Source: an uncultured Microcaldota archaeon
Lineage (GTDB): Archaea; Micrarchaeota; Micrarchaeia; Anstonellales; Bilamarchaeaceae
Direction: 5' to 3'
Assembly (NCBI GenBank): GCA_903828955.1
Contig: CAIKOA010000033.1
Coordinates: 1 to 50,001 of the forward strand
Length of the DNA stretch: 50,001 nt
The notes below the pieces were generated by a model that did not search any database, had not been told where the DNA came from, and saw nothing but the letters and a program-made list of their open reading frames with translations. This document shows positions 5,748 to 19,019 of this stretch, piece after piece (position 1 is the stretch's first letter; each line of letters opens with the position of its first letter). The translations under genes were made by a program, and so were the position numbers.

Positions 5748-5928
5748 AGTTGGGGATTGGGGGTTTTCGAAAGGGCAAGATGGTTCTGGAGGAATTATGC
5801 AAGAGCGGCAAAGAAATGTGCGAACGCGAACAGTTATGGGGGGTTGCTTGGGGTGAAGACCTTTAGGGGGCGCTCCCCCTGAAGGGCTCTGTAACCATGG
5901 TTACATAAAAATTGAGTATGCCGGTACG

Positions 5929-10175: not shown

Positions 10176-12056
10176 ATGGCTGATGATTACGGCGCTGACT
10201 CAATACATGTGATGGAGGGGCTAGAAGGCGTCAGGAGAAGGCCCGCGATGTACATCGGGGACACCTCTAAACGGGGGCTCCACCACCTCATATTCGAAGT
10301 TGTGGACAACAGCATAGATGAAGCTTTGGCAGGATATTGCAAGAATATAGAAGTGCTGCTGAAAGAAGGCGGAGTGGTTGTTGTGAGGGACGATGGGAGG
10401 GGAATTCCCGTAGGCATCCACTCCAAGACCGGAAAATCCGCGCTGGAACTTGTTTCCACAGTTTTGCATGCAGGGGGAAAATTCGAGAAGAAGGCATACC
10501 AGGTGAGCGGAGGGCTGCACGGGGTAGGGCTTTCGGTAGTGAATGCGCTCAGCGAATGGATGGAGATAGAAGTGCACAGGGATGGCGGGATTTTCCGGCA
10601 AAGGTATGCATACGGGAAGCCGACCAGCCCTGTTGAGAAGATCGGGGAAAGTCCGCACAACGGCACAACGGTGCGCTTCAAGCCGGACATGACGATATTC
10701 ACTGCGGAACTGGATTTCGACTACCTGCGCGACCGGCTCAGGGAACTTGCATTCCTGAATGGAGGAGTGAAAATTTCTGCAAGAGATGAGGTTTCCAATG
10801 AAGAGGAGGTATTCAAATATGATGGGGGCATTGCGAGCTTTGTTGAGTACCTGAACAGGGCGAGAAAGCCATTGCACCCTCCATACAGGTACGGGAAGAA
10901 AATTGGGGAAGTTGAAGTTGAGTATGCAATACAATATACGGAAAACTTCAGCCCGATGGTGCACTCTTTTGTGAACAGCATAAACACGATTGAAGGGGGA
11001 ACGCACCTTGTGGGATTCAAGGCGGCGGTAACGCGCGCATTGAATGAATACCTAAAGGATGAGAAGGCGCTGAAAGAAACGAAATTGAGCGGAGAAGACG
11101 TTCTGGAAGGCCTCACTGCGATAATCAGCGTGAAGATGGGAGAGCCGCAGTTTGAGGGGCAGACCAAGACAAAGCTCGGAAATGACGAAGTCCGCGGAAT
11201 TGCTTCAAGCATTGTTTATGAGAGCTTCATAAGGTTCCTTGAGGAAACTCCTGAATTTGCAAAACTCATTGCTGCAAAAGTGATGAATGCAATGCACGCA
11301 CGCGAAGCGGCGCAGAAAGCGAAAGACCTCATCAGGAGGAAGGGGGTTTTCGAAAGCAGCGTTCTTCCGGGAAAATTGGCGGACTGCATAGAAAAGGACC
11401 CCGCTAAAGCCGAAATATTCATCGTGGAAGGGGACAGCGCAGGGGGAAGCGGAAAGCAGGGGAGGGACAGGAGAACGCAGGCAATCCTCCCATTAAAGGG
11501 AAAAATACTGAACGTGGAAAAGGCGCAGATGTCAAAGCTGCTGAAAAGCGAAGAGATACGCACGATAATAATAAGCCTTGGGACGGGATTCGGGGAAGAA
11601 TTCGACGTTGCGAAACTGAGGTACCATAAAATTGTGATAATGACCGATGCGGATGTGGACGGAAGCCACATCAGGACGCTCCTGCTTACCCTGTTCTATA
11701 GGTATTTCAGGGAGGTGGTGGAGCGCGGGTACATATACATCGCACAGCCCCCGCTTTATCGGGTGAAGAAGGGGAAAACGGTAGAATACGCGTATGATGA
11801 TGCGGCGCTCGGAATTGTCCTTGAGAGGGTTGGGAAAGATGCGAGCATCCAGAGGTACAAGGGCTTGGGGGAAATGAACCCTGAGCAGCTCTGGGAAACG
11901 ACATTAAATCCGGAAAAGCGCTCGCTGAAACGGGTGACGATACAGGATGCGATGGTGGCCGACCAGCTCTTCACAACACTTATGGGCGAAGAAGTGGAGC
12001 CGAGAAGGAAATTCATAGAAGACCATGCGAAAGAGGTAGTGAATCTGGACGTGTGA
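10176..12056 (+). CDS. gyrB: DNA gyrase subunit B
   Basis: ATPase and TOPRIM subunit of gyrase, which introduces negative supercoils. The GHKL ATPase has [10 protein letters not shown] (Glu41, Asn45), DDGRGIP, GGLHGVG (112-118) and the QTKTKLGN loop. The TOPRIM domain has EGDSAGG (418-424) and DADVDGSHI (Asp491, 493, 495), and [16 protein letters not shown] marks the tail domain. The ATG at 10176 is chosen because AAAGGTG precedes it and [10 protein letters not shown] is a family-like start; the reading frame extends upstream without support. At 626 aa it lacks the large insert found in enterobacterial GyrB. Gyrase in archaea is regarded as bacterial in origin. Confidence 0.97.
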
Positions 12057-12061
12057 TCACA

Positions 12062-14497
12062 ATGCCAATCATAGACATCCCAATTGAAGAAGACATGAAG
12101 AAGTCCTACCTGGATTACGCGATGAGCGTAATCGTGAGCAGGGCCCTTCCGGATGTGCGCGATGGATTGAAACCCGTGCACAGGAGAATTCTTTTCTCAA
12201 TGCATGAACTGAACAACTACCACGATAAGCCGTATAAGAAGAGCGCAAGGGTGGTTGGGGAAGTTCTGGGTAAATATCACCCGCATGGGGATGTTGCAAT
12301 TTATGATTCGCTTGTCCGGATGGCGCAGCCTTTCAGCCTGCGTTATGTTCTTGTGGACGGGCAGGGAAACTTTGGAAGCGTGGATGGGGATTCTGCGGCC
12401 GCAATGAGGTACACGGAAGTGCGCATGAAAGCGATTGCAGAAGAATATTTGCAGGATTTGGAGAAGGAAACTGTTTCCTTTGTGCCGAATTTCGACGGGA
12501 CCCTTAAGGAGCCTACTGTTCTTCCTTGCAAAATCCCGAGCCTGCTTGTGAACGGCTCTGCGGGAATTGCGGTCGGGATGGCTACCAATGTGCCTCCGCA
12601 CAATTTAGGGGAAGTCGCGGATGCAGTTATTGCATACATAGATGGGGCGGATGAGGAGAAATTGCTCGCCCTTGTGCCTGGGCCGGACTTTCCAACTGGC
12701 GGGTTCATTGTAGGGAATTACGGAATAATTAGTGCGTATAAGACTGGAAAAGGAATAATCAAGATAAGGGCAAAAACCGAAATGGATGATGGGGATATTG
12801 TAGTAACCGAAATTCCTTACCAGGTAAACAAGACCATGCTGATTGAGCAAATAGTTACTGCGGTGCGCGACAAGAGAATAGAAGGGATAGGAGGATTACA
12901 GGACCTTTCAGATAAGGATGGGATGTGCGTAAGGATTGAGCTAAAAAGAGGGGAAGACCCGGAAGTTGTGCTCCAGCAATTGTATGCGCACACCGAACTT
13001 GAGAAGAGCTTTGGAATAATCAACCTTGCGCTTGTGGATGGGAAGCCCAAGCTGCTCACACTTTTTGAAATGGTTTCCGAGTTCGTGAAATTCAGGAAGG
13101 AAATAATCACTAAAAGAAGCCAGTTCGAGCTTGAGAAGGCAAGGGATAGGCTGCACATTTTGCAGGGGCTCGTGATTGCGCTCCAGAACATTGATGCAAT
13201 TGTTGCAATGTTAAAAAAATCGCGGAATGCAGAGGATGCCAGACTCGCGATGGGGCAGGTTTACGGCCTTTCTGAGAAGCAGGCGGCTGCAATACTGGAC
13301 ATGAAATTGCAGAAATTGACGGGTATGGAACGCGAGGGGATAGACGCGGAGCACAAGGAAAGGGAAGAAGAGATAAAATTACTGGAGACGCTTCTTGGTG
13401 ATGAGAAAAAAATACTTGATGTTGTGAAGAAGGAAACTGAAACGGTGAGGGCGAGGTTCTCTGATGCGCGCCGCACGGTGATTTTGCCGGAATCCGATGA
13501 GCGGGCAATAGAGGATCTGATTCCCGATGACAAGGTTGTGGTGAGCTTCTCTGCAAAGGGATACATAAAACGCGTTTCCCTTGATGAATACAAGAACCAG
13601 AAGAGGGGCGGCCTCGGGGTCATTGGCGCGGAAACCGTAGAAGACGATTACATCGAAGACATAATCGTGACCACGAACCACAAGTACATGCTCTTCTTTA
13701 CGGATGCAGGAAAAGTGCACTGGCTGAAGACCTTCATGATTCCCGAAGGGGGAAGGTATTCGAAAGGGAAGCCCGTTGTGAACCTGCTTGAACTAGGCGG
13801 TGAGAAGGTTACTGCCTGGATTGCAGTGGATGAATTCAAGGAAGGTGAGTACCTCATCATGACTACCCGGAAGGGAATTGCCGCAAAGAAGAGGCTTGCT
13901 GAATTCAGCAGGCCGAGGAAGGGCGGGATAATCGCGATTACCCTGAAGGAAGGCGACCACCTGATTGATGTGAAGAAGACGGATGGGAAGCAGACGCTCC
14001 TCATTGGAACCAAGGAGGGGATGGCAATCCAGTTCAATGAAGAGGAAGTCCGCGAAACCGGAAGGTCTTCGATGGGAGTGATTGGAATCCGCCTTGGAAA
14101 AGGGGATGAAGTGGTGAGCTGCACAATCTGCAACAAGCCCCACATACTTACCATTACCGAGAATGGTTATGGGAAGAGGACCGAAGTAGGGGAATACCGC
14201 GTGCAGGGAAGGGGTGGGCAGGGAATAATCAATATAAAGACCGAAGGAAGGAACGGGAAGGTTGTGAACGTGCGTTCGGTCAGCGAAGACGAGGAAGTAA
14301 TAGTGGCAAGTTCCAGCGGAAGAATTGTGAGGCTTTCCGCTTCGGAAATTTCAATTATTGGAAGGAATACGATGGGAGTGCGCATTGCAAAGCTTAAGGA
14401 GAACGAGAAGGTTTCCTCCTTCACTGCAATGAAGCCCGAAGAAGGGGGACAGGAAGAAGGCACGCTCTCTTCCCTCAGCAAGGAGGAAGGCGTGTAA
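12062..14497 (+). CDS. gyrA: DNA gyrase subunit A
   Basis: DNA cleavage-religation and wrapping subunit. The winged-helix and tower region holds the catalytic tyrosine in [11 protein letters not shown] (Tyr117; Tyr122 in E. coli), preceded by KYHPHGD and GNFGSVDGD. The C-terminal beta-pinwheel shows the GyrA box variant QKRGGLG and later blade repeats such as [15 protein letters not shown] and GRNTMGV, so it should wrap DNA and act as a true gyrase rather than Topo IV. ATG 12062 gives the usual [12 protein letters not shown] start; an in-frame GTG at 12053 overlaps the gyrB stop by 4 nt and would add three residues. It is translationally coupled to gyrB. Confidence 0.97.
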
Positions 14498-14516: not shown

Positions 14517-15800
14517 ATGATTGGAAGATGTGCATTTCTTGGCGCGGTTCTGCTATTCGCGGTTTTTTGCGGAGTCGTATATTCTGCGAGTTGCGTTGCG
14601 GGTTTCTCGGATAATTTGAACATAAAGGTTTTGGATGCAACGTTCAGGCCGATAGAAGGGGCCGCAGTGAACGTGACTTACCAGAAAGACAGGAGCACCG
14701 GAAAGGGATACGTGACCACGAAAACCCAGTATACTGACAAGGATGGAAACGTGAAAGTAGGCATATTGAATGCCGAGCAAACCCAGGCATGGGTGCAATG
14801 CGACGTCACGATAAATGCATATTATGACGCAAAAACAGTGACCAGGAAAGTAACCGCGCAAAGCCATGAGAACGAAATACAGCTGCAGTTCAAGGATGCG
14901 TACCTCCTCAGCGTCCATGCTATCGACAGGTTTGGAAATCCTATTGCGAACACCCAGATGCGCATAAAGAACCAGTATGTGAACACGAGCGAAGACGGAT
15001 ATGCCTCAGTGGTCGTGAACAGCGGGGCGGCGGGCATGGCAATCCCGTACCTGAACGGAGTAATCACAGGGAATGTTACCGTGAACGCGGATACGTCCTA
15101 CACACTCCAGGCAAAGATTTATTCGATTAAGGTTAATGTTGTGGACGATGCGGGAAATCCGCTTGTTGCGGACATAATAATCGAGAACCAGACGTACAAC
15201 CAGTCTTCGGTTGAGATTCCTGAGATAGCATTGATAAGCCCCAGCGTGAAGGCAGTTTACGGGCCTGCGGAGAAAATACTCTCTGTCAATCTTGCGGACC
15301 AGCAGGAATACACTGTTTCTTTCGACGTTACCCCTCCGCAGATAAGGGACGTGAGCATGGAGAAGACCAAGGATGGGGGATTGAAGCTCAGGTTCTTCGT
15401 ATTGGACCCTAACCCGATGGCAAGCGGAGCTGACATAGAGGCAACGACCGTTACTACGAACATAAAGGGAATAACGGACACTCTGGTCCCTTATGCTGAA
15501 AGCGGAAGATACGTGGTGGAAATTCCTGTGCAGGCGCCGAACACCCTGATAAGGTTCACGATAAATGCTTATGACGAGCAGGGGAACTCGAATTCCCTCA
15601 ACGGGGAATACCTGGTGCCTGGAGAGGAACAACCTGTAAATGCCACCGGGAATGCCACAACTGGGGAAAATGAGGGGGTGAACCCGCAACCGCAAGGCGT
15701 GGATTATGGAGTTCTTCCGTGGGTAGGCGGAATTGTGGTAATAATTATATTGGCGTATGTGGTTTTCACTTATCTCCGAGGGATAACTGAGAGCAAGTGA
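14517..15800 (+). CDS. Membrane-anchored surface protein with Ig-like domains
   Basis: An N-terminal signal peptide (about 1-24) is followed by three related beta-sandwich segments of the carboxypeptidase-regulatory/Big type: LNIKVLDATFRPIEGAAVNV, LSVHAIDRFGNPIANTQM and IKVNVVDDAGNPLVADII. A further Ig-like domain begins at VTPPQIRDVSM. Then come an Asn/Thr/Pro-rich linker with N-glycosylation sequons (NATGNAT) and a C-terminal membrane helix (about 403-423). It is probably displayed on the cell surface. It follows gyrA by 19 nt behind a G-rich ribosome site, so it looks like the last gene of the gyrase operon. Exact family not recognised. Confidence 0.8.
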   Translation: MIGRCAFLGAVLLFAVFCGVVYSASCVAGFSDNLNIKVLDATFRPIEGAAVNVTYQKDRSTGKGYVTTKTQYTDKDGNVKVGILNAEQTQAWVQCDVTINAYYDAKTVTRKVTAQSHENEIQLQFKDAYLLSVHAIDRFGNPIANTQMRIKNQYVNTSEDGYASVVVNSGAAGMAIPYLNGVITGNVTVNADTSYTLQAKIYSIKVNVVDDAGNPLVADIIIENQTYNQSSVEIPEIALISPSVKAVYGPAEKILSVNLADQQEYTVSFDVTPPQIRDVSMEKTKDGGLKLRFFVLDPNPMASGADIEATTVTTNIKGITDTLVPYAESGRYVVEIPVQAPNTLIRFTINAYDEQGNSNSLNGEYLVPGEEQPVNATGNATTGENEGVNPQPQGVDYGVLPWVGGIVVIIILAYVVFTYLRGITESK

Positions 15801-15807
15801 ACGATAG

Positions 15808-15816
15808 CTTTAAAAG
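15808..15816 (+). promoter_or_regulatory. TATA-like element of the triple-repeat gene
   Basis: CTTTAAAAG. A start near 15838 would give a leader of about 28 nt carrying AAAGGTG before the ATG at 15866. Confidence 0.5.
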
Positions 15817-15865
15817 GATATTAGGAGTAATATAATGTGCCTAAAAACGGAAAAAGGTGAAACTT

Positions 15866-16603
15866 ATGCCGAGGGGAAGGAGAATAGTCATCAACAGAAA
15901 GATCGATGATGATAAGGTAGACTCACTCAAGAACATTGACATGGACGGGGTGAAGCGGGAAAGGCTTCAGGTTGAAGACCAGCTTTCCTCATCCATAACT
16001 GAAGTCATGGAAGCGGCCAAGGAGATGAGCGCAAAAAAGAAGCTCAGCGACGAGGCTCTCCAGAAGGGCGGCCTTTATTCAATACAGGACGCCTATGAAC
16101 TTCTTAGAGGAAAGGGAATGGACATTTCCTTCAGGGCATTTGGAGGAAGGATTGAACGCCGCAGCATACCCTCGGTGAAAGTCGGCAAGAAAAGATACAT
16201 CCCTGTCCAGTCCCTCGATGACATTATTGATGTAGGAAACGCGTTCTATACCGTTCGCAAGGCATACGAGATTTATAGGAAGTATAATAAGGCGATAAAC
16301 TACCGCGCATTCATAGGAAGGGTGGAGAAGAGCTCCATTCCTTCAGTGAAGATCGGCACGAAGAGGCTGATTCCGCGCGATGCGATGGAAAGCCTGTCGC
16401 ATGTGGCAAGAAAATATTTCTCGGTGAGCGATGCGCTCCGCGAGCTCCACAGGAGAAATGTGGAGATAAAGAGGAACGCATTTGAACGCAGGCTGGACCG
16501 GAACCGCATACCGCACGTGAAGATAAGCGGGAGAAGGTTCATCCCCCGCGACGTGGTGCAGGAGCTTATTGACAAGGAGCTTGCGTACCGCGGAAAGCAG
16601 TAA
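15866..16603 (+). CDS. Protein with three tandem excisionase/MerR-like wHTH repeats
   Basis: A 245-aa basic protein: an N-terminal helical segment (1-68), then three repeats of exactly 57 residues with no insertions. Matching positions are Tyr71/Tyr128/Phe185 and the IP-x-VK core at 101, 158 and 215. Each repeat reads as (S/T)(V/I)xxAxxL followed by AFxxRxE/D, IPxVKIG, and (R/K)RxIPRD, the layout of the excisionase-family helix-turn-helix with wing. DNA binding is therefore likely, possibly to a long three-part site; this is inference. The start is ATG 15866 behind AAAGGTG, not the upstream GTG. It sits between the gyrase operon and polB. I know of no named family with this triple architecture. 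Confidence 0.8.
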   Translation: MPRGRRIVINRKIDDDKVDSLKNIDMDGVKRERLQVEDQLSSSITEVMEAAKEMSAKKKLSDEALQKGGLYSIQDAYELLRGKGMDISFRAFGGRIERRSIPSVKVGKKRYIPVQSLDDIIDVGNAFYTVRKAYEIYRKYNKAINYRAFIGRVEKSSIPSVKIGTKRLIPRDAMESLSHVARKYFSVSDALRELHRRNVEIKRNAFERRLDRNRIPHVKISGRRFIPRDVVQELIDKELAYRGKQ

Positions 16604-16637: not shown

Positions 16638-19019
16638 ATGGTTAGGAGGAAGGCTGTCCTTATTGGAGCAGATTATATTGTCCGCAAGGGGCAGACATAC
16701 GCGCGCCTTGAAGTGAAGGGGAAGAAGGCTTGCCGCTTATACTACAGATATGACCCTTATTTCTACGTTGAGGCCCCCCCTGGGGCAAAGGCCCTCCTAG
16801 AGAAGATAACCGCTAAAAGCAAGGAAGGGGAGGTCGTATTTGCAAAATCCATTGAGCCGGTTGTGCGTGAGCTTAAGGGCGAGCGGAAGGAGATTTTCAA
16901 GGTTTGCTGCAATGCGCCTGCGCACGTGCCAATTTTGCAGGAGAAAATGGAATTCCCCTGCTATGAAGATGGGATTGCCTTTGGGAAGAGGTTCCTAATG
17001 GATTTCGGGCTTATTCCGCTTTCCATAATACGGTATGAGCGCGAAGGAAAGATGATCAAGAAGTTCCTTGGGAGCCTGGGGCAAGGCGGGGAAAGGCTGA
17101 ATCTGTTTGCCTTTGATATTGAGACGTATAACCCGGAAGGGGCGCCACGTGAGAATATAGACCCTGCAATCATGATTAGCTATTGCACCGGGAAAGAGAA
17201 GGGAGTTATTACCTATAAGGAAGTTAAAGGGAAGAATGAGCACGTTGAAGTTGTAGGGAATGAGAAAGAAATGATTGAGAGGTTCTGCACGCTTCTTGCG
17301 CAGAAGGATGCGGACATTGTTATTGGGTATAATAGCACAAATTTCGATTTTCCGTATTTGAAGGGAAGGGCGAAAAAACTCAAAATGAGCCTTGCGGTTG
17401 GCCGCGATGGCTCGGAGTACCGGGTTACGAAGAAGGGGCTGATTAGCCCGATAAAGATCTCCGGAAGGGTTCATGTGGACCTCTATCCATCTGTACGGTT
17501 CTTCGGGTTTACCGGGATGATTAAGACCGGGGATTATACGCTCAAGAATGTTTATGCCGCAGTGACCGGAAAGAAAAAGAAGATGGTTGAGCGGCTGGAC
17601 ATTTGGAAGATGTGGGATGAGAACGACCTTGAAGAGCTTGCGGAATATTCACTTTTGGATTCCGTTGTGACGCTTGAACTTGCGGAGCACATCCTTCCAA
17701 TACAGATGGAACTCAGCGAGATTGCGCGCATGCAGCTTTTTGATACTGCTTATGCAACATCCGGGCAGCTTGTGGAAAGCCTTTTGATGGGAGAGGCGGT
17801 GCGGAAAGAGATAGTGATTCCCCCTAAACCTAGCGGCTCTGCGGTGAATGCGCGCGTGAACAATCCAATACAGGGGGCTTATGTGAAATTGCCTTCCCCT
17901 GGGATTTACGAGAATATTGCAGTATTTGATTTCCGCGGGCTGTACCCAAGCATAATATGCTCATACAATATTGACCCGGATACTATGGACAAGGAAGGGG
18001 AGAGCTGGGTTGCTCCGAATGGTGCGAAATTCCTCAAGAATAAGCCCGGGCTGATTCCTTCTGTGCTTACTGGGCTTATCGACCGGCGCGCGGAAATGAA
18101 AGTGAAATTGAAGGGGATGAACAAGGATTCTACTGAATATAGGAAGCTTAATGCGCGTTCATATGCGCTGAAACTTCTTGCAAATTCATTTTATGGATAT
18201 TTGGGCTATGCACGGTCGCGCTGGTATAACCGGAAATGCGCGGAAAGCGTAACCGCATGGGGAAGGCACCATATAATGGAGGCGGAAAAGAGGGCTGAGG
18301 AGGCGGGCTTCAAAGTGCTTTATATGGATACAGATTCGCTTTTCCTTCTTCTTGGAGATAAGAAGAAAGAAGATGCACTGGAATTCCTGAAGAAATTCAA
18401 TTCCTCGCTTCCAGGGAAAATGGAGCTTGAGCTTGAGGACTTTTATACGCGCGGGGTATTTGTGGGCAAGAAGACCGGAGAAGAGAAGGGCGCGAAGAAA
18501 AAATATGCACTTCTTGGGGAAGACGGGAAAGTGAAAATCCGCGGTTTTGAGCTTGTGCGCCGCGACTGGTCTTCTGTGGCGCGGGAAACGCAGCGGAAAG
18601 TGCTTGAGGCTATTTTGAAGGAAGGGAGCAAGGAGAAGGCGATTGGGATTGTGAAGGAGGTTGTGGCGCGGCTTCGCGAAGGGAAAGTGCCTCTTGAAGA
18701 GGTTGTGATTTATACCCAGTTGAAGAAGAGCCCGGGGAATTATGATATTATGTCACCGGAGCTTTCTGCTGCGAAAAAAGGGATTGAACGCGGCAAGAAG
18801 ATTGGCCAAGGGAGCGTAGTAGGATATGTGATTACTACTAAGGGGAAGAGCATTTCGGACAAGGCTGAACTGATTGAGTTTGCGAAGGATTACGATCCAG
18901 CATATTATATTGATAATCAGGTTTTGCCTTCTGTGATGAAAATACTGAAAGAGCTGGGCTTTGATGAATATGAATTGAAGCACGGCGGAAAGCAGAAGGG
19001 GCTGAATGATTTCTTCTGA
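16638..19019 (+). CDS. polB: DNA polymerase family B with C-terminal PIP box
   Basis: Replicative or repair DNA polymerase with proofreading. Exonuclease motifs: Exo I FAFDIETYN (Asp160, Glu162), Exo II YNSTNFDFP (Asp237), Exo III YSLLDS (Asp341). Polymerase motifs: A DFRGLYPSII (Asp431), B KLLANSFYGYLGY (512-524), C YMDTDS (Asp564, Asp566). The protein ends in QKGLNDFF (786-793), a full PCNA-interacting motif. Length of 793 aa is typical of archaeal PolB and no intein is present. Motif A has Gly in place of the more usual Ser before LYPSII. It lies 34 nt after the triple-repeat gene and is convergent with rad50. Confidence 0.97.
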   Translation: MVRRKAVLIGADYIVRKGQTYARLEVKGKKACRLYYRYDPYFYVEAPPGAKALLEKITAKSKEGEVVFAKSIEPVVRELKGERKEIFKVCCNAPAHVPILQEKMEFPCYEDGIAFGKRFLMDFGLIPLSIIRYEREGKMIKKFLGSLGQGGERLNLFAFDIETYNPEGAPRENIDPAIMISYCTGKEKGVITYKEVKGKNEHVEVVGNEKEMIERFCTLLAQKDADIVIGYNSTNFDFPYLKGRAKKLKMSLAVGRDGSEYRVTKKGLISPIKISGRVHVDLYPSVRFFGFTGMIKTGDYTLKNVYAAVTGKKKKMVERLDIWKMWDENDLEELAEYSLLDSVVTLELAEHILPIQMELSEIARMQLFDTAYATSGQLVESLLMGEAVRKEIVIPPKPSGSAVNARVNNPIQGAYVKLPSPGIYENIAVFDFRGLYPSIICSYNIDPDTMDKEGESWVAPNGAKFLKNKPGLIPSVLTGLIDRRAEMKVKLKGMNKDSTEYRKLNARSYALKLLANSFYGYLGYARSRWYNRKCAESVTAWGRHHIMEAEKRAEEAGFKVLYMDTDSLFLLLGDKKKEDALEFLKKFNSSLPGKMELELEDFYTRGVFVGKKTGEEKGAKKKYALLGEDGKVKIRGFELVRRDWSSVARETQRKVLEAILKEGSKEKAIGIVKEVVARLREGKVPLEEVVIYTQLKKSPGNYDIMSPELSAAKKGIERGKKIGQGSVVGYVITTKGKSISDKAELIEFAKDYDPAYYIDNQVLPSVMKILKELGFDEYELKHGGKQKGLNDFF

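Follow-up and report, generated by a model that had tools for sequence, protein, structure and literature searches.

A core gene of one Micrarchaeota order predicted to encode a DNA-binding protein of three fused excisionase/MerR-like wHTH units

The window analysed here, a stretch of 50,001 nucleotides, encodes a small protein in which three excisionase/MerR-like wHTH units are predicted to follow one another in a single chain. It is very probable that this three-wHTH protein binds DNA, and we tentatively favour an architectural protein, abundant and global in its regulatory effects, over a specific regulator. The wHTH unit itself is familiar; a chain fixed at three units and kept as a core gene of a whole archaeal order is undescribed in the literature searched. 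Relative loci carry the name Candidatus Micrarchaeota, for which the NCBI phylum name is now Microcaldota.

The open reading frame (Table 1) is uninterrupted, and its product of 245 aa is basic (pI 10.1), in agreement with the initial annotation. The start codon at 15866 was preferred over an in-frame GTG at 15857 because homologues share the same MPRGKK beginning; some relatives have GTG at the start-codon position. Self-comparison of the protein gave a single peak, at a lag of 57 residues (50 identities in 188 positions, compared to 5–20 at other lags between 40 and 74). Aligned pairwise without gaps, repeats R1 to R3 share 24/57, 18/57 and 18/57 residues, and their BLOSUM scores of 126, 84 and 76 compare with a maximum of 25 among 20,000 shuffles per pair, so that 0/20,000 shuffles matched the real scores. 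The repeats had been described as three exact copies of 57 residues that align without a gap. The period is indeed exact, but only 18–24 of 57 residues are identical, and the gap-free alignment holds for the window protein but not for part of the wider family, in which R2 is one residue shorter. The landmarks reported at Tyr71/Tyr128/Phe185 and the IPxVK motifs at 101, 158 and 215 are correct in the translated sequence, and the RxIPRD-type wing ascribed to each repeat is found in R2 and R3 but reads RYIPVQ in R1.

To place the units in a fold class, we combined domain models with structure prediction. An AlphaFold2 model of the whole protein, built with 47 relatives as input, showed a mean pLDDT of 89.3 and a pTM of 0.78, and R2 modelled alone showed a pLDDT of 91.1. 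In the predicted layout, the N-terminal helices precede a beta-alpha-alpha-beta-beta-alpha pattern that occurs three times, each unit forming a wHTH with a recognition helix and a two-strand wing. The modelled chain terminates at the helix of the third unit, and neither an effector domain nor a coiled coil for dimerisation follows it. The NCBIfam model TIGR01764 ('excise') scored 34.5 bits in the window protein against a cut-off of 28.8 and matched 47/47 members at E <= 0.01 (best 1.2e-13), while HTH_17, whose cut-off is 27 bits, scored 26.5 in the window protein and matched 44/47 members. Foldseek comparison of the modelled structure, suggested in the initial annotation, returned Xis and BldC at probabilities of 0.80–0.99, with E-values above 0.001 of the kind that is common for such small domains. 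A single unit matched Pukovnik Xis (4j2n, 0.99) and BldC (6ama, 0.80), as well as RacA, TraN and RdfS; the whole protein matched RacA (0.93), BldC (0.84) and TraN, and a RacA–DNA complex was among the fold matches. In a viral library, many phage excisionase-like proteins were matched at a probability of 1.00, among them tandem HTH proteins with lengths of 117 and 188 aa. As no structural match of the whole protein or of a single unit reached E <= 1e-3, the family assignment is carried by the sequence match to TIGR01764. Searches of PDB sequences gave chance matches only and were set aside. Collectively, sequence and predicted fold assign all three units to the excisionase/MerR-like class, as had been proposed. 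The same proposal knew of no named family; the domain does have names, TIGR01764 and HTH_17, and it is the three-unit chain that is without one. A search of the open literature found no paper that links Micrarchaeota with excisionase.

The best-conserved parts of the protein, across homologues down to 33% identity, are the three recognition helices, whose role is given from the wHTH fold, and each unit has its own near-invariant helix. Those of R1 and R2 are alike and that of R3 is different, from which we predict a DNA site with two similar parts and one different part. Helices that differ in this way and hardly vary point to specific sites more than to packaging of DNA in general. The N-terminal helical part could be an oligomerisation or tail element.

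Table 1. Positions in the window of the three-wHTH gene, its parts and its neighbours
Feature	Position	Strand	Remarks
gyrB-gyrA	10176..14497	+	upstream; named by sequence reading, gyrA homologues by search
Predicted membrane protein	14517..15800	+	repeated beta-type domains, conserved; just upstream; neighbour in families f1, f4
Promoter-side block	15800-15865	+	conserved within genus
TATA-like box TTTAAAAGG	15809..15817	+	TTTATAAA in close relatives
Shine-Dalgarno-like GGTG	15856..15859	+	
Three-wHTH protein gene	15866..16603	+	245 aa, pI 10.1
N-terminal part (aa 1-68)	15866..16069	+	MPRGRRI start conserved; predicted helices 16-22, 26-56, 62-67
Repeat R1, wHTH (aa 69-125)	16070..16240	+	self-alignment and AlphaFold2 model
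R1 recognition helix FRAFGGRIE (aa 89-97)	16130..16156	+	G94, R95 (R98 just beyond) invariant in 47 members
Repeat R2, wHTH (aa 126-182)	16241..16411	+	self-alignment and AlphaFold2 model; alone pLDDT 91
R2 recognition helix YRAFIGRVE (aa 146-154)	16301..16327	+	R147, G151, R152, E154 invariant
Repeat R3, wHTH (aa 183-239)	16412..16582	+	self-alignment and AlphaFold2 model
R3 recognition helix RNAFERRLD (aa 203-211)	16472..16498	+	E207, R208, R209, D211 (and R212) invariant
polB	16638..19019	+	34 bp downstream; adjoining in the majority of loci sampled from the window's family, not universal

The gene was detected in 81/84 genomes of the window's order, including 28/28 good genomes (completeness >= 90%, contamination <= 5%); the three genomes without a match are 71, 72 and 84% complete. 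It is retained even in genomes of 0.5–0.6 Mb. Elsewhere in the phylum, a clear member was present in 1/217 genomes (G095), and G111 gave a marginal match (5.6e-4) interrupted by internal stops. Viral contigs, phages and plasmids yielded zero relatives at the sensitivities used. This distribution marks the gene as vertically inherited and as part of the core of one order, not as a mobile-element gene. One copy was seen in the window's own genome, which was examined as stretches covering about 85% of it, and a single copy per genome is the rule in the order. Second copies occur in a few genomes: in G007 the extra one is diverged (C42:18844-19563, 40% identical to the window protein), in G066 the copies are near-identical (C10, C21), and G081 carries two different copies of the three-unit protein (C14, C108).

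In the window's family the typical gene order is beta-domain membrane protein, three-wHTH gene, polB. The position next to polB pointed out in the initial annotation is real in the window but common only in the window's own family. Many f1 genomes and some of family f4 have gyrA close to the gene; gyrB-gyrA is upstream in several genera of the window's family and in some f4 genomes. In families f2, f3, f6–f8 and f11 and in G095, the gene is beside or near one read as SRP54; in f2/f3 it is divergent from one read as PUS10. In these groups polB often lies within five genes. Neighbour names other than gyrA come from reading the sequence. No operon partner conserved across the whole order was found, nor was a recurrent integrase beside the gene in the loci compared. 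In many relatives, frames of about 1080–1270 aa with a GyrA match split near residue 100–150 suggest an intein in gyrA (G013, G022, G023, G030, G033, G039, G048, G051, G056, G061 and G062).

Same-strand neighbours lie 65 and 34 bp away in the window, yet the gene has its own conserved promoter block; in f2 the upstream neighbour is divergent. A TTTATAAAT-type box was present in 17/39 promoters of the three-wHTH gene, compared to 20/530 of the remaining upstream regions in those loci. Codon adaptation put the gene at the 94.5th percentile in its own genome and polB at 52, the reference set being three ribosomal protein genes that are themselves at the 93–99.7 percentile. These two proxies, codon usage judged against three reference genes and the strength of the promoter, suggest high expression and a probably abundant protein. 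Conserved clade-specific elements occupy or follow the expected start site: TATGGTAAAaaaTGTATTT is the one of f2, and TGTGTTTTATA...TCATAAACTATAATA that of f1 genus g2. When f2-type and f1 loci were scanned, these elements scored clearly best at the three-wHTH gene itself, with matrices derived from the same promoters, so that the self-matches are not independent evidence. Together with the expression proxies, the elements suggest self-control, but they are not claimed as the binding site since they differ among clades. A TGGT...TGGT repeat of 10 bp in some f2 promoters resembles a head-to-tail site and was dropped as an operator because it is absent from f1.

When 1.04 Mb of the own genome was searched for enriched words and word pairs, no tripartite 10-bp-phased operator emerged. 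The enriched words were TATA, Shine-Dalgarno, T-tracts, a REP-like element and a 16-bp palindrome. The palindrome, with core TAACCATGGTTA and mostly TGTAACCATGGTTACA, occupies nine mostly intergenic places (5890-5905 in the window; L094, L107 (three), L111, L116, L127 and L132) and looks like a putative site of some dimeric regulator. The REP-like palindromic element (...CTTTAGGGGGCGCTCCCCCTGAAGGGCTC...) is dispersed (about 5860-5890 in the window; L107:5229, L117:16562, L122:16357, L150:15520 and others), and in some copies another conserved block, CCCCAGCAACCCCCCAT, comes next.

Histones (PF00808) were detected in 23/84 genomes of the order, compared to 210/217 other genomes of the phylum, and thus went undetected in 61/84 and 7/217, respectively; these absences rest on one Pfam model and on incomplete MAGs. 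By family, histones were found in f2 (19/20), f3 (2/2), f9 (1/1) and f1 (1/43, the sole positive genome having 6% contamination), and in none of f4–f8, f10 and f11; a relaxed search in f1 added only sub-threshold scraps. On the tree of the three-wHTH protein, two or three changes account for the histone pattern, and because these are few events the association is suggestive only; a Fisher test (p about 1e-36) was not counted as evidence since the genomes are not independent. As f2, f3 and f9 carry both, the protein is not simply a histone replacement. HU was found in 0/84 order genomes and Alba is kept almost everywhere. GyrA was present in 77/84, and 55 genomes had GyrA with histone undetected. 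In a 2022 survey every gyrase-bearing archaeon has histones, Thermoplasma excepted, and histones were proposed as a prerequisite for gyrase in archaea (PMC9348778). The 55 genomes look like further exceptions to this rule. Archaeal NAPs have been defined as proteins of <290 aa with a DNA-binding domain, high-abundance outliers compared to transcription factors, and products of single-gene operons (PMC7613761); with 245 aa and a TIGR01764 domain, the three-wHTH protein falls within the size and domain limits.

An architectural role is supported by the three-wHTH model, the pI, the order-wide presence, the codon adaptation, the TTTATAAAT boxes, the histone pattern and the DNA-bending relatives. 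With three units fused head to tail, the recognition helices (RAFxGRxEK in R1/R2, RNAFERRLDR in R3) would enter one major groove after the next, and the basic wing of each unit would sit in the minor groove between. The protein would in this way cover about 30 bp, each unit taking up about 10 bp, and bend the DNA. Such a site and bend are expected since the fold relatives bind one unit per about helical turn and bend DNA. The complex would be the covalent counterpart of three Xis monomers on lambda X1-X1.5-X2. Taking Xis, Apl, RdfS and BldC as guides, we expect about 9–11 bp for the site of one unit (PMC7498355, PMC11963761, PMC5859096), in place of the 20-bp units expected earlier. The protein would be expressed from its own strong promoter, probably under its own regulation, and may have taken over chromosome-shaping work in those families of the order that lost histones. 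Between the nucleoid and partition roles that had been put forward, the nucleoid or architectural one fits best.

The chief alternative, which we consider a real if doubtful possibility, is a sequence-specific global transcription regulator. It would recognise three different half-sites in fixed order, together a long asymmetric operator of about 30 bp, and would act on a restricted number of promoters including its own. The unit-to-unit differences between recognition helices that are otherwise near-invariant argue for it, as do the conserved clade elements of its own promoters. However, those elements vary by clade while the recognition helices hardly do, no intergenic word pair was clearly enriched in the own genome beyond TATA, Shine-Dalgarno and T-tracts, and codon use suggests expression above that of a typical regulator. 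A segregation or origin-associated factor acting at few chromosomal sites, partition- or initiator-like, would be in keeping with a universal single-copy core gene that survives even in genomes of 0.5–0.6 Mb, lies 12–45 kb from an orc1/cdc6 gene in several f2/f3/f8 genomes and often has polB nearby. We regard it as unlikely, since the orc1/cdc6 linkage is not general, the protein has no AAA+, ParA or ParB feature, and the intergenic DNA searched held no matching repeat array. Orc1/Cdc6 was found in 84/84 order genomes, and with separate genes for it the replication initiator of the initial annotation became improbable and was dropped. Finally, the best domain model bears the name excisionase, and the protein might be a recombination directionality factor (true excisionase) or a mobile-element remnant; this is very improbable indeed for a vertical, order-wide, near-universal, single-copy gene with no integrase conserved alongside, no relatives in the viral, phage and plasmid collections at the sensitivities used, and three units, not one.

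If chromosome organisation is the task of the three-wHTH protein, it would reveal how a gyrase-bearing lineage lives without histones and would offer a second large exception for testing the histone-prerequisite idea (PMC9348778). We also put forward, as rather unlikely in its full form, that it is a new kind of archaeal chromatin protein, a covalent three-unit segment of a Xis/BldC-type filament, that arose in one Micrarchaeota order and permitted repeated histone loss with gyrase kept, an arrangement known to the 2022 survey only from Thermoplasma.

Among known systems, TrmBL2, HTa, Alba and histones are likewise small, basic, lineage-specific DNA-binding proteins, here predicted to be highly expressed, but their folds differ from that of the three-wHTH protein, known here from sequence and model. 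Orc1/Cdc6 combines an AAA+ ATPase with a wHTH, and the AAA+ domain is missing here. MerR/RacA shares the wHTH unit but forms symmetric dimers via a C-terminal coiled coil, in contrast to three tandem units with an N-terminal helical part. Closer fold relatives bind direct repeats one helical turn apart, bend DNA and discriminate sites weakly (PMC7498355, PMC11963761, PMC5859096): lambda Xis occupies X1-X1.5-X2 as three monomers arranged head to tail, and the DNA is bent by 72 degrees (PMC7498355), and RdfS places one unit per 10 bp (PMC11963761). Xis and other RDFs (Apl, Pukovnik Xis, RdfS) have the same wHTH fold class but are separate monomers of mobile elements with an integrase, whereas the three-wHTH protein is one chain from a chromosomal core gene with no integrase. 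TraN of pIP501, which matched the whole protein in Foldseek, also has more than one excisionase-like wHTH per chain and binds a specific DNA site (PMC10877727), but it has two units and regulates a conjugative plasmid. BldC, a chromosomal global regulator in Streptomyces, binds 9-bp direct repeats head to tail (PMC5859096), and its MerR-like wHTH resembles each unit here (Foldseek probability 0.80–0.84). BldC is a single 68-aa unit that forms multimers of variable length; the three-wHTH protein is fixed at three units with three different recognition helices, and would give structural studies a head-to-tail Xis/BldC filament in covalently defined form.
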